This document shows, in pieces, positions 1-16,828 of a stretch of 16,828 bases of DNA; the stretch's first letter is position 1, and each line of letters starts with the position of its first letter. The stretch is from NCBI GenBank assembly GCA_017996845.1, contig JAGOGF010000046.1:1-16828 (forward strand). Reading direction: 5' to 3'. The translations under genes and the position numbers were made by a program. The DNA is from Butyrivibrio sp. GTDB lineage: Bacteria; Bacillota_A; Clostridia; Lachnospirales; Lachnospiraceae. The notes below the pieces were generated by a model. That model saw only the letters and a list, made by a program, of their open reading frames with translations. It was not told where the DNA came from and ran no database searches.

Positions 1-253
1 ACCCTGCCATCAGATATGCGGCAGCAGGCGGCCAGTATCGCATCAGTTCGACACCGTTATACCACATTGGATTATATAATGGCCATAGATTTCCATTCAG
101 AAGCGAATGGTATACATAATCACCACGGTATACATGATACATGACATCGCTTCCGGATGGATAAAGTCCATTTTGTGATACGAAAATCATGATCAGAAGC
201 GCCAGAAATTCATACAATATGATTGTCATAATAACACCGGCTGCTCTTTTCAT
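1..253 (-). CDS. PTPS-related polytopic membrane protein, N-terminal fragment (cut by window edge)
   Basis: Only the first 84 codons are present; the rest lies beyond base 1. The start ATG is at 253-251, preceded by a GGAAG ribosome site and lying 15 nt after the stop of the PTPS-like gene, so it belongs to the same operon. The protein opens with KRAAG and one membrane helix (residues about 5-26). An extracytoplasmic loop follows with an acidic residue (D36) and the aromatic-rich motifs VYRGDYVYHS, WPLYNPMWYNG and MRYWPP. This pattern is what I recall of the membrane proteins carrying the '6-pyruvoyl-tetrahydropterin synthase related' domain (PF10131), which resemble GT-C glycosyltransferases with an acidic residue in the first outer loop. 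I infer a role in moving or transferring sugar for the XrtG system. Family assignment is from motif memory, and length and remaining helices cannot be seen. Confidence 0.72.
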   Translation of the reverse strand, partial: MKRAAGVIMTIILYEFLALLIMIFVSQNGLYPSGSDVMYHVYRGDYVYHSLLNGNLWPLYNPMWYNGVELMRYWPPAAAYLMAG

Positions 254-268
254 CTGATTTCTTCCATC

Positions 269-739
269 CTATCTGTCACCTGTATTCATTTCATCCAGCA
301 TCCGGTCAATCATCTGATCCATGGACTGTGCCGACTGTCTGCTGATATGACTGATATAATCTGAATCATTGCTGTAATCGATCACATAACTCCTTGTAGG
401 CGTTTCACTTCCTTCGAGCTGCAGCAGTTCACCGCCGGTTTCATGTATCACAAGTCTGAGCTGTTCCCCAAAATATTCTGTAATATTTTCCAGTGTCGGT
501 ATGATCAGATTGAACGGTTCAACCTGATTCAGCGTGATATTCTGGTATTTATTAAAAAAACCATTTATGGCATTTTCAAAAAAATTAAACTCCATGAATT
601 CCTTACGAACAATCTGAATATCAAGACCAAATTCCCATGTATGCGGATGGACATTTCCCTGCAGTCCTTTGATTGATATGCTGTGGCTGGCATTCAGATA
701 TACTTTGAACCTGTATTTTCTGAAGAATCTGTCCTCCAT
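269..739 (-). CDS. 6-pyruvoyl-tetrahydropterin synthase-like protein of the XrtG cluster, catalytically degenerate
   Basis: The fold is that of PTPS/QueD: an NASHS motif (H19), a paired-histidine motif HPH (H31, H33), PTLENITEYF (E84) and SETPTRSYVID (E112). The three histidines that bind zinc in this family are kept. The catalytic residues are not: the Cys four residues before the histidine pair is Gln27, and the Asp-His of the LDHxxLN motif is Gln66-Asn67 (YQNITLN). Known PTPS and QueD chemistry is therefore unlikely. A PTPS-related family (TIGR03112) is described as a companion of exosortase G, and this protein fits it. I chose ATG 739 (156 aa) because GGAG lies 7 nt upstream. A TTG at 778 that overlaps the previous stop would give 169 aa but has no good ribosome site. 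The C-terminal 30 residues are polar and Met/Asp-rich. Confidence 0.82.
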   Translation of the reverse strand: MEDRFFRKYRFKVYLNASHSISIKGLQGNVHPHTWEFGLDIQIVRKEFMEFNFFENAINGFFNKYQNITLNQVEPFNLIIPTLENITEYFGEQLRLVIHETGGELLQLEGSETPTRSYVIDYSNDSDYISHISRQSAQSMDQMIDRMLDEMNTGDR

Positions 740-774
740 ATCTGTACTCCGTTTCCTTTGTATTTCCTGATCTG

Positions 775-1992
775 TCAAAGCCTGTCAAAATCATCTTTTT
801 GTGTAATATCAATATCAAAATCATTGTTATATTTCATTTTAATCCTGCCCGTTATATCTGAAACAGTCTGCTCTGCCGCAGATTCATCCTCCGGTGTGAC
901 TACAGGCTGCGTCTGCACAGCAGGTGCAATTCCAATGGCTTCTTTCTGATAGACTTCGGCCACATTTTCCTGTTCCCCCACTTCAAAAATACGTTCCGCA
1001 GTAATTGCATATTTTTCCAGAAGACTCAGTTTCTCAACAGCAGCTTCCCTGCTGCACTGTACAAAGATCAAAAGCATGTGTGAGGCATCCATTTTCATCC
1101 GGATCACGTTCTCTCCCAGAATTTCCTGCCCTTCACTGATCAGAATCTGATATGTTTTTTCTTCAAAAGGAACAATTGCCATAACCAAAGGCCTGTTTGC
1201 ACGCTCGTTCAGCTTTTTGAGCATCGTCGGAATAAGAGAACTGCCAAATATCATGGTTTTGGAACTGTATAAATTTTTATTATGCAGTTTTTCATCCAAC
1301 TGCTCAATATTTCTGCGCAGTTCTTCCTGCGTCTGCTGCCCTGCAAAGAGCTGCCTTTTCAGATTATTGACAAGTCTTGCCAGAATAATGACTGCAATTA
1401 CGAAGATCATCAGAATAACCGCTATCATGATTACAAGGCTGATCTTTGTACTCAGATAGGTATTGTTCTCCAGCATAATCTCTGCATTGGTCAGCAGACA
1501 GATTTGATAATTCCTGTTATTATAAACAAACGCAACTCCGGAAGCAATGAATTTCCTTCCATCAATAATCACCACTGCGTGTTTTACCTGACCCTGTTTC
1601 AGTCCTGCCACAAATTCTCTTGAACTGACCGTATTATAATACGTATCGGATGAAAAGCTCTTATATCTGCTTGTTTCCAGTACATCCTTCACAAATACAA
1701 GCGTCTCATCATGCGAAAGTGTCCAATATCTGTTGCTGGAAGAATCCAGCGTTCCCAATATATTTTGTATGATTTTCTCATCTGTATTCTCAGGCTGCAG
1801 ATTGATCTGATCCAGTACCAGCTGTACATAACCATCTTGCTCCTGCGCATAAATCTCGGCCACTCCCTTTTCATAATTGTTAATAAGTACCCATGCATAT
1901 ACTGCAGCAAGACATGCAATTCCAAGTGCCACAAATGTGAAAAAAAGTGTAGGAAACATTTTTGAACGATTATTTCTGTTCTTCGTATGCAT
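775..1992 (-). CDS. Two-TM sensor-like membrane protein with degenerate GGDEF-like cytoplasmic domain
   Basis: 405 aa. Membrane helices lie at about 13-36 and 184-206 and enclose an extracytoplasmic domain of about 145 residues that resembles dCache-type sensors. A polar, coiled-coil-like helix (207-240) leads to a cytoplasmic domain (about 243-345). Its pattern, RPLVMAIVPF then VIRMKMDASHMLLIF, can be laid over the GGDEF fold (LALIDID, then RLGGDEF). The signature is reduced to KMDAS, and the residues where an RxxD inhibitory site would sit read ILGE. It should therefore not make c-di-GMP, and no known binding site is visible. The tail (350-405) is acidic and disordered-looking. The start has GGAGG 6 nt upstream and overlaps the end of the glycosyltransferase gene by 23 nt. 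Its place beside a BcsA-like glycosyltransferase suggests it senses or controls glycan synthesis. The fold assignment is inference. Confidence 0.65.
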   Translation of the reverse strand: MHTKNRNNRSKMFPTLFFTFVALGIACLAAVYAWVLINNYEKGVAEIYAQEQDGYVQLVLDQINLQPENTDEKIIQNILGTLDSSSNRYWTLSHDETLVFVKDVLETSRYKSFSSDTYYNTVSSREFVAGLKQGQVKHAVVIIDGRKFIASGVAFVYNNRNYQICLLTNAEIMLENNTYLSTKISLVIMIAVILMIFVIAVIILARLVNNLKRQLFAGQQTQEELRRNIEQLDEKLHNKNLYSSKTMIFGSSLIPTMLKKLNERANRPLVMAIVPFEEKTYQILISEGQEILGENVIRMKMDASHMLLIFVQCSREAAVEKLSLLEKYAITAERIFEVGEQENVAEVYQKEAIGIAPAVQTQPVVTPEDESAAEQTVSDITGRIKMKYNNDFDIDITQKDDFDRL

Positions 1993-3364
1993 CTGAATCC
2001 TCCGGATTGTTTACCATTTCCCTGAATTTAGTTATAACCTTTCTGAAACGAGTCGTATCTGTCCTGACAATGCCGTTAAAAGCCGCATTTTCTTCCGACA
2101 AAGTGCTGGTGCGCCATGCACTGTTGGTATTGATGCTGTTGACAATGCCGGCAAACCGGATAAAAAAGACAAGCAGATTAAAAAACGGAAGCCATAGAAT
2201 CACCCACCACTGTTTCAAATAGTATCTGCGTACCGCAGGGAAATCTTCCAATAGTTTCTGTGAAATCAGAAAATACAGATATCCGCAAAGAACATAAAAC
2301 GCCATAATCAGTCCGATGGATACAAAAACAATCTTACCTGAGTATCCGATAAACATCAGATATAAAAGAGCTACATACCAGATGATTCGCGGAAATGCAA
2401 ACGTATGATCATACATCAGTGTCTTAACATTACTGTCCTTGAACATACGAAGCGGGCGGAGCTTACTCTGCGGAAACATCCTGGCAACTTCCAGCGAGCC
2501 TCTTTGCCAGCGCTGACGCTGCGTATAAAGCTTGTCCATGTTTTCAATCGGACCTACGAAAAAGATGGCATCTTCACAGATTTTCACAATCTGATGCTGA
2601 ATATATTTCATCTGAAAAGTGATTTCCGTATCTTCACAGATGGTATCTGTATTATATAACCATGAATTTCTGAGCGCTGATTTACGAAATCCGGAGAAAG
2701 CACCGGAAAGTGTATAGATTGCATTGAATTCAGACGCATAATTTCTTCCTGCCAGAAACGCCTGTGCATATTCCGTAAATTCCAGTTTGCGCAGAAATCT
2801 TGACTTCCATAAGGGATAATGCTCAATCTGTTCCGGTATGGTCAGAATCGTACCCGTCATACAGTTAACAGCAGTGTCTGCTTCAAATTTTCTTACCATA
2901 CGGGATAAAGCCGTCGGTTCCAGCTTACCGTCACTGTCGATATGAATGATATATTTCCCTTCGCTGTTGTAAATTGCCAGATTCAATGCTCTTGATTTGC
3001 CCTGCATTGCATTCAGCCACTGCATGCGAAGATCGGAATACTTATCCTGACATCTTGTATATATATCAAAGCTATCATCTTTTCCCTGATTATTGACCAG
3101 AAAAACCTTGATGCTCCTGTTGGGATAATCAGAATCATTAATGGATCTGATGCATTGCTCCAGCGAAGCGCTTGAATTATAGACCGGAATAATCAATGTG
3201 ATTTCAGGATACCTGTCCGGTATCGGAATCTTTTTTCTGGTGATCATGCCTTTCAACAGGACGAAAAATCCGCCGATTGCAGGCAATACTTCCATAATGA
3301 GCGGAATAGTAATCCAGGATATCCAGAAAAAGAAGGGATTAAAAAGCTGCGCCGCAAGTCTCAT
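1970..3364 (-). CDS. XrtG-associated membrane glycosyltransferase, family 2 (TIGR03111-like)
   Basis: 464 aa. An N-terminal membrane helix (about 8-38) is followed by a GT-A catalytic domain: LIIPVYNSS (57-65), the DxD metal/nucleotide-sugar motif DSD (143-145), CEDTEIT with the probable catalytic-base region (E244-D245), and QRQRW (282-286). The last is the Q/RxxRW signature of processive synthases such as cellulose, hyaluronan and poly-GlcNAc synthases. Three or more C-terminal helices (about 320-425) complete the BcsA-like layout. It should polymerise or transfer sugars from a nucleotide sugar at the inner membrane face. Its ATG overlaps the XrtG stop by four bases (ATGA), so the two are probably translationally coupled. 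A glycosyltransferase of exactly this kind is a defined partner of exosortase G. The sugar and the product are unknown. Confidence 0.88.
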   Translation of the reverse strand: MRLAAQLFNPFFFWISWITIPLIMEVLPAIGGFFVLLKGMITRKKIPIPDRYPEITLIIPVYNSSASLEQCIRSINDSDYPNRSIKVFLVNNQGKDDSFDIYTRCQDKYSDLRMQWLNAMQGKSRALNLAIYNSEGKYIIHIDSDGKLEPTALSRMVRKFEADTAVNCMTGTILTIPEQIEHYPLWKSRFLRKLEFTEYAQAFLAGRNYASEFNAIYTLSGAFSGFRKSALRNSWLYNTDTICEDTEITFQMKYIQHQIVKICEDAIFFVGPIENMDKLYTQRQRWQRGSLEVARMFPQSKLRPLRMFKDSNVKTLMYDHTFAFPRIIWYVALLYLMFIGYSGKIVFVSIGLIMAFYVLCGYLYFLISQKLLEDFPAVRRYYLKQWWVILWLPFFNLLVFFIRFAGIVNSINTNSAWRTSTLSEENAAFNGIVRTDTTRFRKVITKFREMVNNPEDSDAYEEQK

Positions 3365-3963
3365 TTTTTCTCATTCTTTCCGTAGGTAAACCGGCCAACC
3401 TGCATGTGAACAATATGCGGTTTGGTGAACACATAGAAATACATCGCCACCTGCAGGAAATAAAACACGATTCTGCCTACAAAAGTATGCGCGATATAAT
3501 ATACATCCGTTCCATATGCCTTTACCAGCAGACATATGATGGTAATGCGGAGTGCATTTCCCAGTATGGTATATACCGTTCCCAGGATTCCGACCAGCAC
3601 CCGTTCACTGATATCGTATACACCGAAAAAAGCCAGAAGAGACAGAAATGCAGCAATTTCAATGATTCCCGAACATTCCAGATCAATACGGAGCGTTACC
3701 GCACTGACTCCTGACGTAATAAAGAGAACGCCATATTTGAAATAGGTAACGTACGCGCCTGTCAGATTCCCCACAATACCGGAAATGGCAGCCACAACTC
3801 TGGCCAGCGGCAGGGTCAGCCATGGCCGGATTAATGTCATCTGAATCAGAAACAGACCAATGCTCCCAACCATATAAAACCAGAATCCAAGTTTGCTTCT
3901 TTTGAGTACAAATAATATATATATCCATAATGCGATTATAATAACCGCTGCCAGGTACTTCAT
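3361..3963 (-). CDS. xrtG: Exosortase family protein XrtG
   Basis: 200 aa, polytopic, with about six to seven hydrophobic helices. The exosortase/archaeosortase catalytic residues are visible in the right order and spacing: Cys97 in LECSGI, Arg139 in GNALRI and His159 in YIAHTFVGR. These enzymes are membrane transpeptidase-like proteins that recognise a C-terminal tripartite signal (short motif, hydrophobic helix, basic cluster), cut it, and are thought to transfer the protein to another molecule. The G type (TIGR03110) is the Gram-positive version, found with a glycosyltransferase and a PTPS-like protein; both lie directly downstream here. Its likely substrate is encoded directly upstream (4038-5690). 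The start has AAGGA 8 nt upstream. The identification rests on catalytic motifs plus gene order, and is strong. Confidence 0.9.
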   Translation of the reverse strand: MKYLAAVIIIALWIYILFVLKRSKLGFWFYMVGSIGLFLIQMTLIRPWLTLPLARVVAAISGIVGNLTGAYVTYFKYGVLFITSGVSAVTLRIDLECSGIIEIAAFLSLLAFFGVYDISERVLVGILGTVYTILGNALRITIICLLVKAYGTDVYYIAHTFVGRIVFYFLQVAMYFYVFTKPHIVHMQVGRFTYGKNEKK

Positions 3964-3979
3964 CCGTTATATCCTTTCC

Positions 3980-4002
3980 AAAAAAGCAGGGAAACCCCTC
4001 TG
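3980..4002 (-). terminator. Weak hairpin plus T-run between the sorted protein gene and xrtG (possible attenuator)
   Basis: On the minus strand a short GC stem (CAG-GGG pairing with CCC-TG around a GTTT loop, with one bulged A) is followed after GC by six T residues, just before the ribosome site of xrtG. The stem is only about six pairs, so this would terminate only partly. It could lower expression of the enzymes relative to the abundant surface substrate. This is seen by eye and no folding energy was calculated. Confidence 0.35.
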
Positions 4003-4037
4003 TTATTCAGAAGAGCTCCCCCTCAGAAGCTGTTGCT

Positions 4038-5690
4038 TTATGTCGCCTGCATCTCAAATTCCCATGGATATTTCTTCTTACGATAATAAAACAGCATTGC
4101 TGTTGGAATGATACAGATTGTAACGGCAAGCCATGGATCTGTTGATGTTCCTGCCGCACTCAGCCATTCCTGTCCCAGTCTGTGGAACTGTACCCCGAAA
4201 GTTCCGACATCATTTTCCGAGAGGCCGAATTGTCTGGCAAGTGTTGCCAGATCAAAACCGTACTCCATCTGGTCAATCCCGTTTTTGATTGTCACAGTCA
4301 TCTTACCATAACAGGTGTCATTCGGTGAAATATTATTGATATTCGTTGTCACTCCCCAGCCTGAATTATCAAAGAGATAAAATGTATAGGTCCCGTCTGT
4401 GAGGTTTCTCATGGAGCCGCCATTTTTATTTAATGATCCATCCGGATTCTGATAGTAGGCCGTTACCATTTTGGTCTTACCGGAATCGTTGTTCACTTTG
4501 ACGGTAAATTCGGTAAATTCATACCCGCCCATCTGCGAGAGATGTTCCGGGTTGCTGGTATATACATGCCCATACGCCGTGCTTCCGTCTGTATAAAGTG
4601 CACCTTCTGCATCAACCTCACCGTATTTCGTGCCAGCTGTATCGTATTGAATGACCTGGTTGGGATAATTGGCCCAGTCGGCATAATCTCCATCAACCGT
4701 AATGGCTGATTTTGTTCCTGTTCCGGATGTACTGCCGCTTCCAGAATCAGAGCCAGGCGTATTTCCGCCGCTTCCGTTATAATTGGATACATCACTCACA
4801 AAAGTGGAGCCAAGATAATAACCAAATGAGATGGAATTCCTATAATAGGGAAGTGCCGATCTGGGAATGGCGATTTCTCTGCGATAGTGCGGATCATCGG
4901 CATGCCAGTCCCCGCTCTTATAATCGGTTGATACCGTAACCCCCGATACCGTCTGATTCTGATACGTTACTTCAACCTGCCCTTTATCCATAACATGCAC
5001 GATCATAACGTTCCCCAGATCAGTCGTAATTGCAAAATTACCGCTGCTGTTGACACCTGACCAGGATGCCGCATTGGGCTGATGTTCATCCAGATACAGA
5101 TATACATAATCTCCGTCAAAGACCATCCCTGCCGCATTTACAAGTCCGCCGCTGGCACTGCTGGTATCCTCTTTGGCAACGGCATCCCAGTCGGAGAAAT
5201 TACCATCCACCTTAATTCCGTCGAAACTGCCCTGGGGAGCCGCCATCGCAGATGCGCCAAGCAAATTAACAAGACCGGAATTTCCTTCTGATGAAATGTC
5301 TGCCGCTACAGAAGCATCATCTGACATTCCGGATGACGCACTGTCGGAAGAATCTGACACGCTGCCCTCTGATGCTCCCGTTGAAGCTTCCGCACCTGCT
5401 GACATTCCGGTTCCGGCATCTACTGCAGCACCGGTTCCGGTAGCCGGACTCTGCACTGAGGATGCGGATTCCGAAGGATCTGTCGCTGAACCTGTCCCGG
5501 CAGCATGCTTTTTTTCATCAGCAGTTCCTGTACCGCTGCCCGTCATATCGCTGCCATTGCTGACTTCTGTATGCAGAGATTCTTCTGCCGCAGAATTTTC
5601 CGCTGCGTTTACAGTCGTCATCTGTGTTGCAGCCAGGAATGGTATGATAAGTGCGAGACTGAAAAAGCGTTTTACACTTTTTTTCATCAT
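4038..5690 (-). CDS. Secreted Firmicu-CTERM-type surface protein, likely XrtG substrate
   Basis: 550 aa from ATG 5690, chosen because AGGAGG lies about 9 nt upstream; the in-frame ATG at 5699 is almost on top of that site. A signal peptide (about 1-29, ending VNA/AE) is followed by a long Ser/Thr/Gly/Ala-rich, likely glycosylated stretch (about 30-150). Two related modules come next, each starting with VDG(x)3DW (VDGNFSDW near 161-168 and VDGDYADW near 332-339), separated by a Gly/Ser linker. This motif is reminiscent of CBM9/DOMON-like beta-sandwiches that bind sugars. The C-terminus carries a sorting-type tail: STDPWL, a hydrophobic helix (about 520-535), RKKK, then YPWEF. This fits the Firmicu-CTERM domain (TIGR04145) linked to exosortase G. 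It is the first gene of the operon. The ligand is unknown. Confidence 0.85.
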   Translation of the reverse strand: MMKKSVKRFFSLALIIPFLAATQMTTVNAAENSAAEESLHTEVSNGSDMTGSGTGTADEKKHAAGTGSATDPSESASSVQSPATGTGAAVDAGTGMSAGAEASTGASEGSVSDSSDSASSGMSDDASVAADISSEGNSGLVNLLGASAMAAPQGSFDGIKVDGNFSDWDAVAKEDTSSASGGLVNAAGMVFDGDYVYLYLDEHQPNAASWSGVNSSGNFAITTDLGNVMIVHVMDKGQVEVTYQNQTVSGVTVSTDYKSGDWHADDPHYRREIAIPRSALPYYRNSISFGYYLGSTFVSDVSNYNGSGGNTPGSDSGSGSTSGTGTKSAITVDGDYADWANYPNQVIQYDTAGTKYGEVDAEGALYTDGSTAYGHVYTSNPEHLSQMGGYEFTEFTVKVNNDSGKTKMVTAYYQNPDGSLNKNGGSMRNLTDGTYTFYLFDNSGWGVTTNINNISPNDTCYGKMTVTIKNGIDQMEYGFDLATLARQFGLSENDVGTFGVQFHRLGQEWLSAAGTSTDPWLAVTICIIPTAMLFYYRKKKYPWEFEMQAT

Positions 5691-5786
5691 GATATCCATC
5701 CCTCCTTTCGCCTTTCCTAACGGCTGTTTTGCCTGCTGTTTTCTATTATCATAATCATTGTCATATTTTCAGAATATTTGTTTTTT

Positions 5787-5929: not shown

Positions 5930-6475
5930 ATGTCCTTTTTTCAATCCTATTCCTTTCAGCGAGCATGTGCCGATATTTTAAGACTTTGGAAAAATTATCT
6001 GATACCCGCCTGTGTACTGGGGAGCATCTGCTTCTCCTGTTATCTTCTGTACGCCATTGTCAGACATAAAAAGAAGTGGCCTGCGCTCTTCTTTTTCCTG
6101 CTTGGTATGTACGTCTGTTACGTCTGTGCTGCCACATTTTTTACAAGGGAAATCGGCAGCAACAATACGGTCAATCTGGTTTTGTTTTCTACCATTGATA
6201 ACAGACATGCCTGGTTTGCATATGAAAATATGTTCATGCTGTTTCCGCTGGGTATTCTCCTGCCGACCATATGGCATTCTGTACGTAAATGGAACGTCGG
6301 GCTCTTGATCGGTTTCCTGATCGCCCTGATCATCGAAACGCTGCAATATCTGACACGCACCGGGCACTTTGAACTGGATGATATTCTGTTCAATGGTCTG
6401 GGAGAAGCTGCCGGATGGCTTATCTATCAATTTGCTGCAGCTCTTATTCATAAAGCACCTGTTTCACACAAATAA
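5930..6475 (+). CDS. VanZ-like family membrane protein
   Basis: 181 aa with four to five membrane helices. The VanZ-like family pattern is clear: ENMFMLFPLGILLP (about residues 99-112), then GFLIALIIETLQYLTRTGHFELDDILFNGLGEAAGW read in pieces, with the conserved IE..Q, DDI..N and G..G elements. VanZ itself gives low-level teicoplanin resistance by an unknown mechanism; most chromosomal homologues like this one have no proven role and are thought to act at the cell envelope. The start ATG follows GGAG by 7 nt. It is transcribed alone, away from the XrtG operon, and ends at a good hairpin. No vancomycin resistance genes are nearby, so glycopeptide resistance should not be inferred. Confidence 0.85.
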   Translation: MSFFQSYSFQRACADILRLWKNYLIPACVLGSICFSCYLLYAIVRHKKKWPALFFFLLGMYVCYVCAATFFTREIGSNNTVNLVLFSTIDNRHAWFAYENMFMLFPLGILLPTIWHSVRKWNVGLLIGFLIALIIETLQYLTRTGHFELDDILFNGLGEAAGWLIYQFAAALIHKAPVSHK

Positions 6476-7760: not shown

Positions 7761-7782
7761 GGTCTATTCAATCGAATAGACC
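7761..7782. terminator. Hairpin at the convergent gene ends (weak terminator candidate)
   Basis: A perfect 9-bp stem (GGTCTATTC with GAATAGACC) and 4-nt loop includes the stop codon of the GGDEF-EAL gene and starts 13 nt after the stop of the SH3b gene. No T-run follows in either direction, so intrinsic termination would be weak. It may instead protect mRNA 3' ends. Confidence 0.4.
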
Positions 7783-10268
7783 TGCTGCTCTACCGCCACA
7801 TCAGCAGGAACAGGCTTGCAGAAATAGTAGCCCTGCACGTAATCACACCCATATTTCTGCAGGAGCTTTAACTGATTTCTTTCTTCTATTCCTTCTACCG
7901 TAATCTTCATGTCAAGGCAATGCGCAAGATCAATCAGAATGCCTATAAAATCGCCCTTTCCCTCCTGGAGATAGGTATCCGTCAATGTTTTGTCGATCTT
8001 AATCTTTTCGACAGGTATATAAGTTAGATAACTGATTGCAGAATAACCGGTTCCAAAATCATCCAGTGTCAGGCTGACACCGATCTTACTGAAATCAGCG
8101 AACAGATTCATTGCCTTGTCATTATTTTCAATCAGAATGCTTTCCGTAATCTCAATCTCAATCAGCTGCGGCGCAACATGATATTTCTTCAGCAGTCCCT
8201 GCAAATAAGACACATAACCTGTATCCGCCATCTGTCTGCTGGAGAAATTAATAGACACCGGCAAAATGGTGATTCCCTGATCCTGCCATTTTGCAATCTG
8301 CCGTACTACTTTCTGGGTTACAATGCGCCCGATCGACTGAATCATCCCGGTCTCCTCTGCAACAGGGATGAACTGTCCCGGTGTATAGGAACGATCTTTC
8401 AAACGCAGAAGCGCCTCAAATCCTGCAATCTTTCCTGTGATAATATCTACCTGCGGCTGATAAAGGATCTCAAAACCATTCTCTTTGCATGCTTTCTGCA
8501 GAACGCCTATTACTTCATTCTTTTTCAGCATATTATTTTTCATCGCAGTGTCAAAATAAGCATATTTATTCTTGCCTGAATGCTTGCAGGCATACATCGC
8601 AAGATCTGCATTTGCAAGCAGCTCCGGAGCAGAACACTCACCATTTACCGAACTTGCGACCCCCATGCTGGTACTGATCAAGTAAACCTGATCATGGTAC
8701 GAAAAAGGTCTTCCCAGTTCCTGTCTGATGCGATTCACATACAGACTGGTTTCTTCCGCAGAAACGACTGATGTAATAAGCAGAAACTCATCTCCGCCGA
8801 AACGGGATGCAAAAATGTCCATATTCTCCATCATCCGGTCCAGACGTTCTCCGATCTCAATCAGAACCGCATCACCAAATGCATGTCCGATGGAATCATT
8901 GATTCCTTTAAAATCATCCACATCCAATGCGATCAGTGATACAGAAGATCTGTTCCCCAGAAGAGAAGAAAGACGGGAAATTGCTGACTGTCTGTTCGGA
9001 AGACCTGTCAGATAATCATGTTCTGCCTGATAACGGATATGTGCTTCCTTATCTTCGAGTTCTTTCCTGAAATGGCGCTGTCTGATATTGTCCCACCCGA
9101 CTGTCAGAATGACGATGAACAATACAAGTGAAACAATAATAATCGGCACCATATACTTTTTGTATATTACAAAAAAGGATTCTTTTTCATTTATGATAAC
9201 CGCACCGGCAGGTATCAGTTTTCTGTCAATATGATACTTCTGTATCATATCATTATCAAAATAGTACGTTCCATCTCCATTTTCCCGGATCGGAATCTTC
9301 GTAATATCTGCACCTGATAAAATATTTCTGGCCATTATCGCAGCAGATTTACCGGATTCCTCATAGGAAACCATTTTGCCTCCCAGAAAGCCATCTCCAA
9401 CACCGCCAAAAGAACTGCGGTAGATCGGAATATGTGCATGCGCCGCAGTATAACGGATTCCATCAAGCATCGTATATGCATTGCCCTCTACATCCGTAAA
9501 ACTGTCCATATACAGCAGAATCGTATCATTTCCAAGCGATTCCAGTTGTTCCGCATATTCTTTCCAGGTGTAAAGAGAAGTATCAAGCGTTTTAAATGTA
9601 TATTTCGGATATGCATTTTTGAGTGCCATGAACTGCTGTAAATCCCCATATCCGGTCGGCGTATCATCATAAATTCCCACAATCTGTTTTGCCTGCGGCT
9701 GCATTTTGGTTGCAATTGCAAGTGTTTCCTTGATATAAAGTTCCTCTGCAATTCCCGTAATATAGGGATTTTCTCCTGCGCTGCGTGCTATGTTCAGATC
9801 ATTTACGCAGAAAAAGACCATCGGTGTATTCTTAAAAAGTTCCTCCTGGTGTTTAACGGCAAAACGCAAAGCAGAATCATCGCCCAGAAGGATCAGATCG
9901 TACTTCCTGGCTCTTGCAAGTTTATATTTCAGACTTACATAGAAATTATTCTCATTCTCCGAAGTATCGTAATTTTTCATATCCATATACTGTGTATCGA
10001 TTCGCACATTATTGATGGAATCAAATACGTCATTGATTCCCTTTTTCTGTAATGCGACCGTTGGAAAATCATCCGTATAGGAACTGATAAACAAAATTCT
10101 CTTTCCGGAGCATGCCGTATTCTGAAGGGCGGTCTGTTCTCCTCTGTCTGTATCATTAAATTTTGCAGCTACGGCAATCAGAAAGACAGCAAAAAGAATG
10201 AAATATGCCGGTAAAATGTATTTCTTATAAATTTTCCATGCCCTATCATAAGAAAATGATTTTTTCAT
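7764..10268 (-). CDS. Membrane GGDEF-EAL protein with extracytoplasmic substrate-binding-like sensor
   Basis: 834 aa from ATG 10268; a TTG one codon earlier is possible, and the CAGGAG site fits either. A first helix (about 18-37) is followed by a periplasmic-binding-like domain (about 55-350) similar to ABC_sub_bind (PF04392), then a second helix (about 372-392). The GGDEF domain (about 410-570) keeps RFGGDEF (near 490-495) and DVDDFKGINDSIGH. The RxxD inhibitory site is absent (ENMD at that position). The EAL domain (about 585-830) keeps the EAL motif (in GFEALLRL), SINFSSRQ, IEIEITES, DDFGTGYS, KIDKTLTD, EGIEE and QGYYF, so all usual metal and catalytic positions look intact. It can therefore probably both make and break c-di-GMP, with the balance set by an outside ligand. 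It has its own promoter and is a single-gene unit. Confidence 0.92.
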   Translation of the reverse strand: MKKSFSYDRAWKIYKKYILPAYFILFAVFLIAVAAKFNDTDRGEQTALQNTACSGKRILFISSYTDDFPTVALQKKGINDVFDSINNVRIDTQYMDMKNYDTSENENNFYVSLKYKLARARKYDLILLGDDSALRFAVKHQEELFKNTPMVFFCVNDLNIARSAGENPYITGIAEELYIKETLAIATKMQPQAKQIVGIYDDTPTGYGDLQQFMALKNAYPKYTFKTLDTSLYTWKEYAEQLESLGNDTILLYMDSFTDVEGNAYTMLDGIRYTAAHAHIPIYRSSFGGVGDGFLGGKMVSYEESGKSAAIMARNILSGADITKIPIRENGDGTYYFDNDMIQKYHIDRKLIPAGAVIINEKESFFVIYKKYMVPIIIVSLVLFIVILTVGWDNIRQRHFRKELEDKEAHIRYQAEHDYLTGLPNRQSAISRLSSLLGNRSSVSLIALDVDDFKGINDSIGHAFGDAVLIEIGERLDRMMENMDIFASRFGGDEFLLITSVVSAEETSLYVNRIRQELGRPFSYHDQVYLISTSMGVASSVNGECSAPELLANADLAMYACKHSGKNKYAYFDTAMKNNMLKKNEVIGVLQKACKENGFEILYQPQVDIITGKIAGFEALLRLKDRSYTPGQFIPVAEETGMIQSIGRIVTQKVVRQIAKWQDQGITILPVSINFSSRQMADTGYVSYLQGLLKKYHVAPQLIEIEITESILIENNDKAMNLFADFSKIGVSLTLDDFGTGYSAISYLTYIPVEKIKIDKTLTDTYLQEGKGDFIGILIDLAHCLDMKITVEGIEERNQLKLLQKYGCDYVQGYYFCKPVPADVAVEQQVYSIE

Positions 10269-10301
10269 CAAGAAAAATCTCCTGTCACATTGGATAGATC
10301 T

Positions 10302-10349: not shown

Positions 10350-11189
10350 TTATTTCCAGCGATATCCGCTGCTGATCGCATGGACAGGGCATACATTTTT
10401 GCAGGCGCCGCAGCGGATACATTCCGGAGAATTGATATTTTCCGTTACTTTGACCTGCATCAGGCAAGTCTTCTCACAAATCCCGCAATGCGTACACTTG
10501 TCTTCCTCTACCTGCATCCGGTAAATACTGAATCTGTTAAAAAGTGCATATACAGCGCCCAATGGACAGATATATTTACAGAAAGGTCTATATATATGCA
10601 TCGATGCGGTCACCGTCAGAATCAGGATCAACATTTTCCAGGAGAAAAGGAATCCAACCATACTGCGAAGTGCCGGATTGGTAAGCACAAGCGGTATCCC
10701 ACCTTCGAGTGTCCCGGCCGGACAGATGTATTTGCAGAACCATGGATCTCCGATTCCATAGGTTCCATGCACCAGTGCCGGTAAAAGAAGAACAAAAACA
10801 ACAAGAATCACATATTTCAGATAGCGAAGCATTCCATCGATTCCTGCCGGTATCTGCCATTTTCTGACCGGTATCCTGTACAGCAGTTCCTGCAGAAATC
10901 CAAACGGACACAGAAAACCGCAAATCAGTCTGCCAAATATTGTGCCAAAGAGGATCAGCAATCCCGTAACATAAAAAGACAGGCTTTTCTGCCTGCCATT
11001 TAAGACTGCCTGCAGTGAACCGATCGGGCAGGCACCAAAAGCCCCGGGGCATGAATAACAGTTAAGCCCCGGAACACATATCCGTTTACTCTGTCCCTGC
11101 CAGATTCTCCCCTCAGCAAAGCCTTTCAGATTTCCATTCATCAGCAGCGCAGAGACTGCCTGGATCCAATGCCGCGTTCTTTCCTTCAT
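10350..11189 (-). CDS. Polytopic 4Fe-4S membrane protein (NapH/CcoG-like) of a redox operon
   Basis: 279 aa from ATG 11189, preceded by GGTGAGAGGG. An ATG at 11234 would overlap the CXXC gene and has a poor ribosome site. The N-terminal part carries CVPGLNCYSCPGAFGACP. Membrane helices are separated by CGFLCPFG, CKYICPAG and CKYICPLG motifs, the CxxxCP signature of the NapH/NosR/CcoG-type quinol or ferredoxin-linked proteins. The C-terminus holds two ferredoxin clusters, CTHCGICEKTC and CIRCGACKNVCP. It should pass electrons from the cytoplasm through the membrane. Its operon partners are a thioredoxin-like lipoprotein and a CXXC peptide, so I infer that it supplies reducing power to thiols outside the membrane. 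It is the last gene of the operon. Neither electron donor nor acceptor has been shown. Confidence 0.85.
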   Translation of the reverse strand: MKERTRHWIQAVSALLMNGNLKGFAEGRIWQGQSKRICVPGLNCYSCPGAFGACPIGSLQAVLNGRQKSLSFYVTGLLILFGTIFGRLICGFLCPFGFLQELLYRIPVRKWQIPAGIDGMLRYLKYVILVVFVLLLPALVHGTYGIGDPWFCKYICPAGTLEGGIPLVLTNPALRSMVGFLFSWKMLILILTVTASMHIYRPFCKYICPLGAVYALFNRFSIYRMQVEEDKCTHCGICEKTCLMQVKVTENINSPECIRCGACKNVCPVHAISSGYRWK

Positions 11190-14032: not shown

Positions 14033-15247
14033 TTATTCGATTCCTTCCACTTTATGATAAAACACTTTGATGATCAGATCATAAAGCTGTTCCTCATCAT
14101 ATGTAAATTCCTCATGTTTCGTTTTACCGACCGCAGTGGTTCCCTTAAGAGAATATATACCGGAGGAATCAAAACTGTAACCGATCATGTTCGTTGCCAT
14201 ATAGGTCACCTTTGAGGCATCAATATCTGTCACCATATAGGGTTTTACTCTGTTGAAAATATCAAGTACCAGAGAAGGATCACTTTTCACACCGCTCTTG
14301 AGGCTGCCGGCAAAGCCTCCCAGATACTGTTCCTGCCGCAGAAGTCTTGCTGAGGCACTGTCAAAGGCAGCTTCGTTCCGATACCGGATATAGGTATATG
14401 CTTCCTTGCCTGTCAGCTTGACCCTGTTGCCTTTGGTCAGCCGCTTATCTCCCCATGCGGTACAGTCTTCGAGTACATCGACCGTGACTCCTCCGACTGC
14501 ATTATTGATCTCACTGAAGGCCCCCATATTGAGCGCACAATAACCATTGATCGGCAAATTGTAGAAGAGATTGGAAACCGCCTTTTCCTCCCGTTCACAA
14601 CTCTGCTCTTTGCCATCGCCATATCCATGCTGCAGACAGATCTGCCCGACGCCCGATCCCACAAAAGCACCCTTTTGATCATAAACATCGATATCTGTCA
14701 TCGTATTCCGGTTTACAGATATAACCGAGAACTTTCTGGCATCCGGATCCGCCGCCAGGAGAAATATTGCATCTGCCTGACCACCGCTGATCCCATCCTT
14801 TGCCGTCCTGACTCTGTTCTGATTATCAATTCCCATGATCAGAAATGTCAGAATATTCGAATTATACGTGTAAACACCGCCTTTATACCGAATCCATCCT
14901 GCCTGCCAGTTCTCTCCCTGACTGCTCTCATTACCTGATACTGCTGCAGCAAGATCCGGCCCGCTGGAAGCAGTATTTGCATACAGTTCCTTTTTACCTA
15001 CCTGATTCATAATCTGCCAGGCTGCCAGAACCGTTCCTCCCATACATAACACTGCGATCAGTATCCCGATCAGAATCTTTATGAACAATCTGAAACCATG
15101 CCGCCTGTGATGGTGATGTCTGTGATGATGATGCGTTTCATGCCTGGGATCCTCTCCCTCATTTTCCGGTTTTATGGAAAGATCTGCAATAAACATATCT
15201 TCATCCTTCTGTATTGTCTCATTTGTTGTTTTATTATAGTTTTCCAT
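14033..15247 (-). CDS. LCP family (LytR-CpsA-Psr) protein with His-rich cytoplasmic tail
   Basis: 404 aa, start supported by GGGGAG 9 nt upstream. The cytoplasmic N-terminus (1-52) holds ten histidines among residues 36-50 (a run of ETHHHHRHHHHRRH). One membrane helix (about 53-77) and a linker (78-125) follow, then the LCP domain (about 128-330): LTFLIMGIDN, GGQADAIFLL, FSVISVNRNTMTDI, INNAVGGVTVDV, IRYR and ARLLRQEQYL carry the conserved Asp and Arg residues that bind the pyrophosphate-lipid substrate. LCP enzymes attach wall polymers such as teichoic acids or capsule to peptidoglycan outside the cell. No polymer genes adjoin it, though the XrtG glycan cluster is in the same window. The His cluster may bind metal; it is not a feature of the family core. 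Confidence 0.9.
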   Translation of the reverse strand: MENYNKTTNETIQKDEDMFIADLSIKPENEGEDPRHETHHHHRHHHHRRHGFRLFIKILIGILIAVLCMGGTVLAAWQIMNQVGKKELYANTASSGPDLAAAVSGNESSQGENWQAGWIRYKGGVYTYNSNILTFLIMGIDNQNRVRTAKDGISGGQADAIFLLAADPDARKFSVISVNRNTMTDIDVYDQKGAFVGSGVGQICLQHGYGDGKEQSCEREEKAVSNLFYNLPINGYCALNMGAFSEINNAVGGVTVDVLEDCTAWGDKRLTKGNRVKLTGKEAYTYIRYRNEAAFDSASARLLRQEQYLGGFAGSLKSGVKSDPSLVLDIFNRVKPYMVTDIDASKVTYMATNMIGYSFDSSGIYSLKGTTAVGKTKHEEFTYDEEQLYDLIIKVFYHKVEGIE

Positions 15248-15472: not shown

Positions 15473-16510
15473 ATGGTAGAATACACTGGTAGCGGAGAAA
15501 TTGATCTTTCTGTACTGGAAGTCGCTGATGTAATTGATGTTGCCACACTGAAGAAATTTCTGGATAATTTTGCACTCGGAATGAACTGTGCTGCAGTATC
15601 CGTCGACCGCAATGGTAATGAAATTACCTCTCCAAGCTATTATCGTTCTTATTGCCAGGATTTCATTCACAATTCTCCTACCGGAGATAAGCGCTGTGCA
15701 GAATGTCATAACCGTATGGGAGAAGAAGCTGCCAGAACAGGTAAACCTTTTGTCGGTCCCTGCCATGCAGGTCTGACTGACTTTGCAGCACCGATCATCG
15801 TAAACGGTCAGCACCTTGGGACTGTACTTGGCGGTCAGATTCTTGACAAACCCATGGATGAAAAAAATGTACGAAGTGTTGCGCATGAAACCAATCTGGA
15901 TGGCGATGCCTTATGGGCTGCCAGCAAAAAGATCGATATTGTTTCGAAAAAAAATATTGATGCTGCTGCAGAAGTTCTGTTTATTGTAGTAAATACATTT
16001 GCTGAAAATGGCTACAGACAGCTTGAAATCAAGCATATGTCAGGCGAACTGGCTGACAATTTCATTCAGATCTCTTCCACTGTCGATATGCTTGCCGAAT
16101 CTGCACAGACCATCACCTTCAATCAGCAGGCACTGACAGAACAGATTCAGAGCATTACTGCAACAACGGAGAAGATCACCGCTGTTCTCAAATCCATTGA
16201 ACAGATTGCCAACAATATCAAGATGATCGGTCTCAATGCCAGTATCGAAGCTGCACATCTTGGTTCCGCAGGCGCAGGCTTTGCTGTTGTAGCAAAGGAG
16301 ATTCAGAATCTTTCTCAGAAATCAAAAGGAACAGCCAATGAAATCTCGACCATGAATGAGCAGATTACAGAGATTATCTCCAGTACACTGGAAAAGGCTG
16401 ATAATACCCTTAAGACAACCGAAGATCAGTCAGCTGCCATGGAAGAACTCTCTGCAACTACGCAGAATGTAACCACACTGGCTGAGAAGCTGAAGGAACT
16501 TTCCAACTGA
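15473..16510 (+). CDS. Soluble PocR-domain methyl-accepting chemotaxis-like receptor
   Basis: 345 aa, no membrane helix or signal peptide. The N-terminal PocR sensor domain (about 22-180) shows its usual cysteine/histidine set: C39, C61, KRCAECHNR (C75, C78, H79), GPCHAGLTDFAAPI (C97, H98) and GTVLGGQ. PocR domains bind small organics and some sit near redox-active cysteines. The C-terminal half (about 190-345) is a long coiled-coil hairpin. Its tip, MIGLNASIEAAHLGSAGAG followed by FAVVAKEIQNLSQKS, is the kinase/CheW-contact region of chemoreceptors. The arms are short and no C-terminal methyltransferase tether is seen. It should sit in a cytosolic array or act through another partner. No che or fli genes occur in the window. 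The start follows AAAGGAAAGG, and the gene ends at a strong terminator. Confidence 0.92.
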   Translation: MVEYTGSGEIDLSVLEVADVIDVATLKKFLDNFALGMNCAAVSVDRNGNEITSPSYYRSYCQDFIHNSPTGDKRCAECHNRMGEEAARTGKPFVGPCHAGLTDFAAPIIVNGQHLGTVLGGQILDKPMDEKNVRSVAHETNLDGDALWAASKKIDIVSKKNIDAAAEVLFIVVNTFAENGYRQLEIKHMSGELADNFIQISSTVDMLAESAQTITFNQQALTEQIQSITATTEKITAVLKSIEQIANNIKMIGLNASIEAAHLGSAGAGFAVVAKEIQNLSQKSKGTANEISTMNEQITEIISSTLEKADNTLKTTEDQSAAMEELSATTQNVTTLAEKLKELSN

Positions 16511-16583: not shown

Positions 16584-16828
16584 TCAGATCAACCTTAATG
16601 TGGCTGCTTCTATTTCCTCTGCTATGTGTTTCACCTCCGTCTTCGTGAACCCATATGGCGCACTGACTTTATATAAATCTTCAAATGAAGGAATTCTTCC
16701 ATTTCCATTTATTGTTGTTGCTCTCTCCCCACCAGTTGAATAACTGTATGTCAGATCATAGGCTGGTGACAATGACCATCTCATTGTTTTTTCATCAAAT
16801 AAATAAGTAAAGTTTTTTGAGTGGTCAT
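16584..16828 (-). CDS. HipA-family kinase toxin, C-terminal fragment (cut by window edge)
   Basis: The frame is open from the window end to TGA at 16584, giving about 81 residues. It begins with DHSKNFTYLFDE, which contains the histidine-Ser-Lys-Asn part of the HipA catalytic loop (family pattern D-x-H-x-K-N). This is followed by MRWSLSPAYDLTYS, ERATTINGNGRIPS and a helical end. These are hallmarks of the HipA C-terminal lobe. HipA proteins are Ser/Thr kinases that in known cases phosphorylate glutamyl-tRNA synthetase, and are held by a HipB-type antitoxin. The ATP site, the start and any hipB lie outside the window, so intactness and the toxin role cannot be judged. An ATG at 16784 is internal. 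Confidence 0.85.
   Translation of the reverse strand, partial: DHSKNFTYLFDEKTMRWSLSPAYDLTYSYSTGGERATTINGNGRIPSFEDLYKVSAPYGFTKTEVKHIAEEIEAATLRLI

Follow-up and report, generated by a model that had tools for sequence, protein, structure and literature searches.

An exosortase G locus of Butyrivibrio and a related lineage in which the fused enzyme is retained without its cysteine

The closest described relative of the locus considered here is the XrtG / Firmicu-CTERM system of NCBIfam, which on a plasmid of Lachnospira eligens has the same gene order as a 16,828-nucleotide stretch of Butyrivibrio sp. DNA (contig JAGOGF010000046.1 of assembly GCA_017996845.1; hereafter the window). The mentions of the system that we found are passing ones: a complete XrtG system is listed among over-expressed cell-wall markers of L. 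plantarum (PMC12854382), and 'exosortase G' is a table row (PMC8951740). The relevant passages of these two papers mention no XrtG mutant, in agreement with a first-pass annotation of the window, made from its sequence alone, which held that the purpose of XrtG is not established. The Gram-negative PEP-CTERM / EpsH system has in common with the window the C-terminal tail of motif, transmembrane (TM) segment and basic residues, a conserved triad and a link to exopolysaccharide genes (PMC1569441). By comparison, the window system has one substrate beside the enzyme, and its motif is of the type G-x-S-T-G rather than PEP. Its relatives are Firmicutes, without an outer membrane, which is a further difference. 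XrtG shares the superfamily TIGR04178 with archaeosortase A, but it is accompanied by genes for glycans rather than for lipid synthesis. The window glycosyltransferase shares TIGR03937 (123.1 bits) and the QxxRW motif with BcsA- and PgaC-type synthases, but scores far below the PgaC cut-off of 422.3 and has no PilZ domain in a Pfam scan (E<=0.01).

To our knowledge, the acceptors and purposes of exosortases in bacteria are largely unknown. We propose, with a probability of about one half, that the products of the XrtG locus form a complex in the membrane which synthesises a surface glycan and, on its outer face, retains a protein that binds carbohydrate. The features of the locus are as follows.

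4038..5690, minus strand: Firmicu-CTERM protein, putative XrtG substrate (TIGR04145 at 102.2 bits, cut-off 50, over residues 333-543 of the frame 4038-5699; fold of a relative; layout read from the sequence)
4137..4154, minus strand: sorting motif A-G-T-S-T-D, residues 516-521 of the 553-residue frame (sequence; motif class in relatives)
3361..3963, minus strand: XrtG exosortase (TIGR03110 at 170 bits, cut-off 102.75), with C97 at 3673-3675, R139 at 3547-3549 and H159 at 3487-3489
1970..3364, minus strand: XrtG-associated family 2 glycosyltransferase (GT2), PgaC/BcsA-like, with a QRQRW motif (TIGR03111 at 581.7 bits, cut-off 363.95; QxxRW)
775..1992, minus strand: two-TM sensor with an extracytoplasmic domain (residues ~36-185, topology inferred), second TM segment, long helix and cytoplasmic domain (predicted model)
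922..1257, minus strand: degenerate GGDEF-fold domain of the sensor, residues 246-357
269..739, minus strand: protein with a domain like 6-pyruvoyl-tetrahydropterin synthase (PTPS; T-fold) (TIGR03112 at 123.4 bits, cut-off 69.35, in the frame 269-778; conservation; alignment to solved PTPS/QueD)
2..253, minus strand: N-terminal 84-residue fragment of a PTPS-related membrane protein, cut by the window edge (match to a protein of relative L001, PF10131)

The first-pass annotation had described six consecutive minus-strand genes, and a check of the reading frames bears this out: all six are real, with a gap of 74 bases after the first gene and the other neighbours overlapping or at most about 40 bases apart. 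The first gene starts at 5690 in that annotation and at 5699 in the longest frame. Hidden Markov model searches with the four families it had named placed four window proteins above all four curated NCBIfam cut-offs; XrtG is already named in the databases, and the window is a further member of a known system. To that system it adds an unnamed sensor gene, the frame 775-1992, for which neither NCBIfam nor Pfam gave a family above cut-off. The 84-residue fragment had no match of its own in either database; it matches an 826-residue protein of L001 (11973-14453) that is PF10131 at 454 bits, and the class of such proteins is, we presume, that of the GT-C transferases. Searches of solved structures with the single substrate, sensor or PTPS-protein sequence returned no match, and the window has no tRNA match and no Rfam match at gathering thresholds.

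We scanned an alignment of 22 XrtG sequences (A1) against genome contigs, which gave 143 confirmed places, and kept the best 80. Members were counted at a phmmer score of at least 30 (above 400 for the glycosyltransferases used for QxxRW), and absences include contig ends. Among these best 80 loci, XrtG is present in 80, the substrate and the glycosyltransferase in 78 each, the PTPS and GT-C proteins in 72 each, and the sensor in 71. Because in all 80 loci the best-scoring members share one strand and 49 have exactly the window order (19 have GT-C shifted beside the substrate and 12 are partial), the arrangement is not due to chance. The distribution of XrtG is sparse. It was found in 13 of 398 genomes of a phylum sample (9 over cut-off), 11 of 392 from the order of a Butyrivibrio relative (10 over cut-off), 12 of 391 from the class of another relative (12 over cut-off) and 14 of 63 from the class of genome G020 (13 over cut-off), with 4 of 10 (1 over cut-off) and 1 of 3 in further small samples; the samples overlap, and the class and order samples of G020 are the same 63 genomes. 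Fourteen named control genomes gave zero XrtG in each genome-sample search. We set aside L100/L111 (23.6 bits, below the XrtG cut-off) and L141 (21.5 bits). In locus L080, a short frame (10578-11111) consisting of the start of the glycosyltransferase, PTPS and the end of GT-C resembles an internal deletion of the locus.

The residues C97, R139 and H159 of XrtG occur at the positions given in the first-pass annotation and are invariant in all 81 sequences (80 loci and the window). The product of the first gene has a signal-like N-terminus, a linker rich in Ser, Thr, Gly and Ala, two 'DGxxxDW' domains and a C-terminal sorting tail, in which A-G-T-S-T-D is followed by a hydrophobic stretch and RKKK. 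Among 78 tails (77 loci and the window), 74 carry the motif class xGxS[TSAG]x and the remaining 4 read GTP[TS]G. By the model of a relative, the first 'DGxxxDW' domain may resemble CBM9, with a borderline match; in CBM9, an aromatic clamp for the chain end has been described (PMC8280721). Because the Cys/Arg/His triad and the substrate tail are both intact, the window XrtG probably also removes the tail and passes the protein on to an acceptor.

In five loci (L053, P0282, P0285, P0335 and P0264) the substrate and XrtG form a single frame, which in P0264 also bears a dolichyl-phosphate-type GT2 and GtrA. The first helix of XrtG in these fusions is the former tail helix of the substrate and comes directly after the motif. 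The Cys is kept in 5 of 5 of them, 4 of 5 retain the AGxS[ST]G motif, and they could still be cut; for archaeosortase A, a naturally fused protein that contains an internal cleavage site has been described (HVO_0405, PMC7157517). For the fusion model, the Foldseek rows were not meaningful. A different kind of sharing is seen in L099/L110 (93.9 bits, below cut-off), where the exosortase and the glycosyltransferase occupy one frame.

A second group of fusions has lost the nucleophile. The class of G020 contains 15 XrtG places in 14 genomes, of which 9 are fused (frames of about 400 residues in which a substrate-like domain runs directly into XrtG, that of L122 being cut by a contig end) and 6 are separate genes. 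Cys97 is lost in 9 of 9 fused sequences (8 Asn, 1 Ser) and kept in 6 of 6 separate ones; a tenth fused XrtG, L091 from genome G082, has Asn at this position, so that the loss extends to 10 of 10. Arg139 is present in all 10, and His159 in all 9 that extend to it. By phmmer, the fused domain is related to the separate proteins beside the six unfused enzymes. Five of these six end in W-S-P-I-P-I-[LM], a hydrophobic stretch and basic residues, while L128 has I-S-P-I-P-A-L instead; all 10 fused frames read W-x-P-F-P and then continue into XrtG. The tie to the window substrate consists of position and weak TIGR04145 matches (15.9 bits in L092 and 19.4 in L104, cut-off 50), and the term 'CBM9-like' for this clade would be an extension from L053.

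The nine fused rows included in the tree fall into a single group with support of 92/90, or 99/96 (starred) without L121; we therefore count a single event, not nine, and a test that assumes independence would mislead. The ratio of nonsynonymous to synonymous substitution rates (dN/dS) ranges from 0.082 to 0.136 for the Cys-less XrtG part in six pairs from four genomes (G020, G139, G433 and G082), close to the 0.070-0.104 of the adjoining glycosyltransferase; pairs were limited to dS < 1.6, which leaves 6 pairs out of 28 in the fused gene and 6 out of 21 in the glycosyltransferase. The Cys-less domain is thus under purifying selection. In L103, L106, L126 and L130-L133, a PTPS::GT-C protein and a glycosyltransferase stand beside the fused gene. 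Taken together, the low dN/dS and the retained neighbours indicate that selection still acts on XrtG next to the synthase after the nucleophile has gone, and joining that depends on the nucleophile looks dispensable in one lineage. Our literature search found no report of a Cys-less exosortase fused to its substrate; most subscription journals lay outside the search, so that novelty is unproven.

These results bear on three other explanations. The first-pass annotation had suggested that XrtG, after cutting the tail, joins the newly formed C-terminus to a glycan or glycolipid made by the neighbouring genes, giving a covalent protein-glycan conjugate. The co-occurrence of XrtG and GT2 in 78 of the 80 loci, the invariant triad and the presence of a dedicated substrate next to the enzyme in 78 of the 80 are all in keeping with this, but the Cys-less clade retains its synthase genes under selection, and the free end of a GT2 product normally carries an amine only if the product is an amino sugar. 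The conservation can be explained without a covalent link to the glycan, and we regard the link and the model built on it as unlikely. What stands of the earlier description is one coherent system in which XrtG has its own substrate with a sorting tail and a glycan is made; the Cys-less clade speaks against joining to the cleaved end as the general function.

Alternatively, XrtG might act as archaeosortase A does, moving the protein from its peptide anchor to the amine of a membrane lipid, with the glycan genes supplying a binding partner only. ArtA substrates are lipid-anchored and their processing needs HvPssA and HvPssD (PMC7157517). The common superfamily points the same way, but we find no lipid-synthesis gene among the neighbour families identified in the 80 loci, which are part of all families there, and the Cys-less clade needs no anchor exchange; we think this explanation improbable. 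That XrtG is chiefly a protease releasing the CBM9-like protein together with the polymer, the Cys-less clade being a decaying remnant, would suit the intact motif and triad of the window, the single event on the tree and the split GT-C frame of L106, but it is very unlikely given a dN/dS close to that of the glycosyltransferase and the seven loci that retain the PTPS::GT-C protein, the fused protein and the glycosyltransferase together.

The glycan-making part of the proposed complex is well supported, because QxxRW, the motif of processive GT2 enzymes, is present in all 78 glycosyltransferases checked (77 loci and the window) and because GT-C and polyprenyl-phosphate-sugar partners accompany the XrtG loci. 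Genes of the GT2-GtrA type lie within 400 bp of the locus in 13 loci (Pfam run on two). In 10 of the 78 the GT2 is lengthened to more than 900 residues, and in the three checked (L017 and L024 with Pfam, L024 and L049 with NCBIfam) the extension has a sulfatase fold nearest to phosphoglycerol transferase I. It scores below the cut-offs of NF009027/NF003000 (at best 181.6 of 572 bits in L024 and 167.4 of 574 in L049), and on this sequence evidence the C-terminal domain, which the window lacks, is a related domain and not an equivalog. In L101 and L103-L108, PTPS is fused to GT-C (the frame of L106 is split), and the GT-C part of L101 and L107 continues into a 'DGEFDDW'-type domain with a tail, TIGR04145 reaching just 15.9 bits in L101. 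The GT-C of L053 (13199-17185, 1,328 residues) is continuous with an RmlD domain of the dTDP-rhamnose pathway. A GH16 lipoprotein beside L112 gave a hint of beta-glucan, but the lipoprotein had no phmmer match in the other loci of L001-L080 and L101-L112.

The PTPS-like domain is numbered here from the TTG frame starting at 778, although its likely start is the ATG at 739 (M14, invariant in 17 of 17 aligned sequences). All 73 sequences have the zinc-type residues H32, H44 and H46 as well as Q79 and R129, and 72 keep the anchor Glu E125; in the Aneurinibacillus locus L082, H44 is Ser. The catalytic residues of PTPS and QueD are a Cys and an Asp-His pair. When the window-type domain is aligned to solved PTPS/QueD, no Cys precedes the HxH, and the Asp-His of 2dj6 falls on Gln-Asn (window Q79-N80). 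With the zinc histidines and the Glu kept and the catalytic residues lost, the domain appears to serve in binding, not in catalysis. In the seven frames where PTPS is fused to GT-C, the histidines and the E-x-P motif are likewise present. A second, shorter PTPS-domain gene stands before the substrate in L048 (4897-5250), L043 (1425-1826) and L033 (7955-8311); matches to it are weak in 24 of the 80 loci, Pfam finds the domain in L043 and L033, and the copy in L048 is just over the TIGR03112 cut-off (73.6 of 69.35 bits).

The gene called sensor-like in the first-pass annotation does encode a membrane sensor, which can now be described more closely: it has an extracytoplasmic domain, on the inferred topology, and a cytoplasmic part with a GGDEF fold (in a sensor model with a mean predicted local distance difference test score of 75.4). 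The fold is degenerate, the GG[DE]EF active-site motif occurring in 0 of 82 homologues in the columns of residues 285-320; four of the 82 contain the pattern, each time in the extracytoplasmic domain and never at the site. It differs from PelD-type degenerate GGDEF regulators in its two TM segments and extracytoplasmic domain, where PelD has a GAF domain, and in that no RxxD site was recognised at the expected place. In L112, PTPS replaces the GGDEF-fold domain after the sensor helix, the sensor part being a weak match of 26 bits. A Lactococcus plasmid locus, in which the sensor was not found, is instead immediately preceded by genes for a diguanylate cyclase and an EAL protein.

We considered a link to cyclic di-GMP. 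GGDEF or EAL frames occur in 12 of the 80 loci (13 frames in 1397 kb), while the ten genomes behind the loci contain 180 GGDEF matches in about 34.2 Mb, predicting about 7 in 1397 kb. Because the excess is small, the two counts come from different methods and EAL-only frames were counted on one side only, we claim no control of the 80 loci by cyclic di-GMP. The gts operon of L. acidophilus pairs a BcsA-like GtsB with a degenerate EAL protein that binds cyclic di-GMP (PMC6123363); GtsB could not be shown to be TIGR03111, so the operon is an analogy only.

As separate observations on such genes, the window encodes an ABC-substrate-binding-like sensor with GGDEF and EAL domains (7764-10271, minus strand), L001 likewise has a GGDEF-EAL gene after its locus (14557-16875), and a compact XrtG operon on the Lactococcus lactis conjugative plasmid pBV60 (L081, 4413-10691) consists of PAS-GGDEF, EAL, CTERM, XrtG, glycosyltransferase, PTPS and TIGR03766. 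Elsewhere in the window lie a VanZ-like protein (5930-6475, plus strand) and a LytR-CpsA-Psr protein (14033-15247, minus strand), both near the locus, a protein that combines a PocR sensory domain with a chemotaxis (MCP) signalling domain (15473-16510, plus strand) and, at the window edge, a C-terminal piece of a HipA-like protein (16584-16826, minus strand). A family of lipoprotein-like proteins of about 720 residues has 17 members (L041 11010-13214 and 16 others); in 16 loci, 15 of them with the gene downstream, it is encoded on the same strand as the XrtG locus and less than 400 bp away, and it gave no Pfam match in the three members scanned and no NCBIfam match in the one scanned.

In the complex that we propose, the processive-type GT2 would polymerise the glycan and pass it outward, and the GT-C protein would use polyprenyl-phosphate donors to attach sugars on the outside; some relatives would add phosphoglycerol as well. 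This glycan may be bound, perhaps at its chain end, by the exported CBM9-like protein, which would be held at the synthase through XrtG, while the PTPS domain and the degenerate GGDEF-fold sensor would be cytoplasmic control parts that sense ligands. A more far-reaching combination, which we hold tentatively and consider somewhat unlikely as a whole, is that XrtG is at root a membrane dock fixing a CBM9-like protein that binds the glycan end to the synthase, that transpeptidation is secondary and was discarded in one lineage through fusion of substrate and enzyme and loss of the Cys, and that the PTPS domain, with zinc histidines but no catalytic residues, is a new type of receptor for a small ligand, pterin-like or guanine-nucleotide-like, controlling the synthase.

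The fusions name subunits that work together. A gene that is selected without its nucleophile in one clade separates two possible roles of an exosortase, docking and transpeptidation, and the persistence of the gene in distant Cys-less relatives suggests that holding could be as important as cutting. The PTPS domain, which keeps its zinc ligands without the catalytic residues, may represent a new kind of regulator of polysaccharide synthesis.
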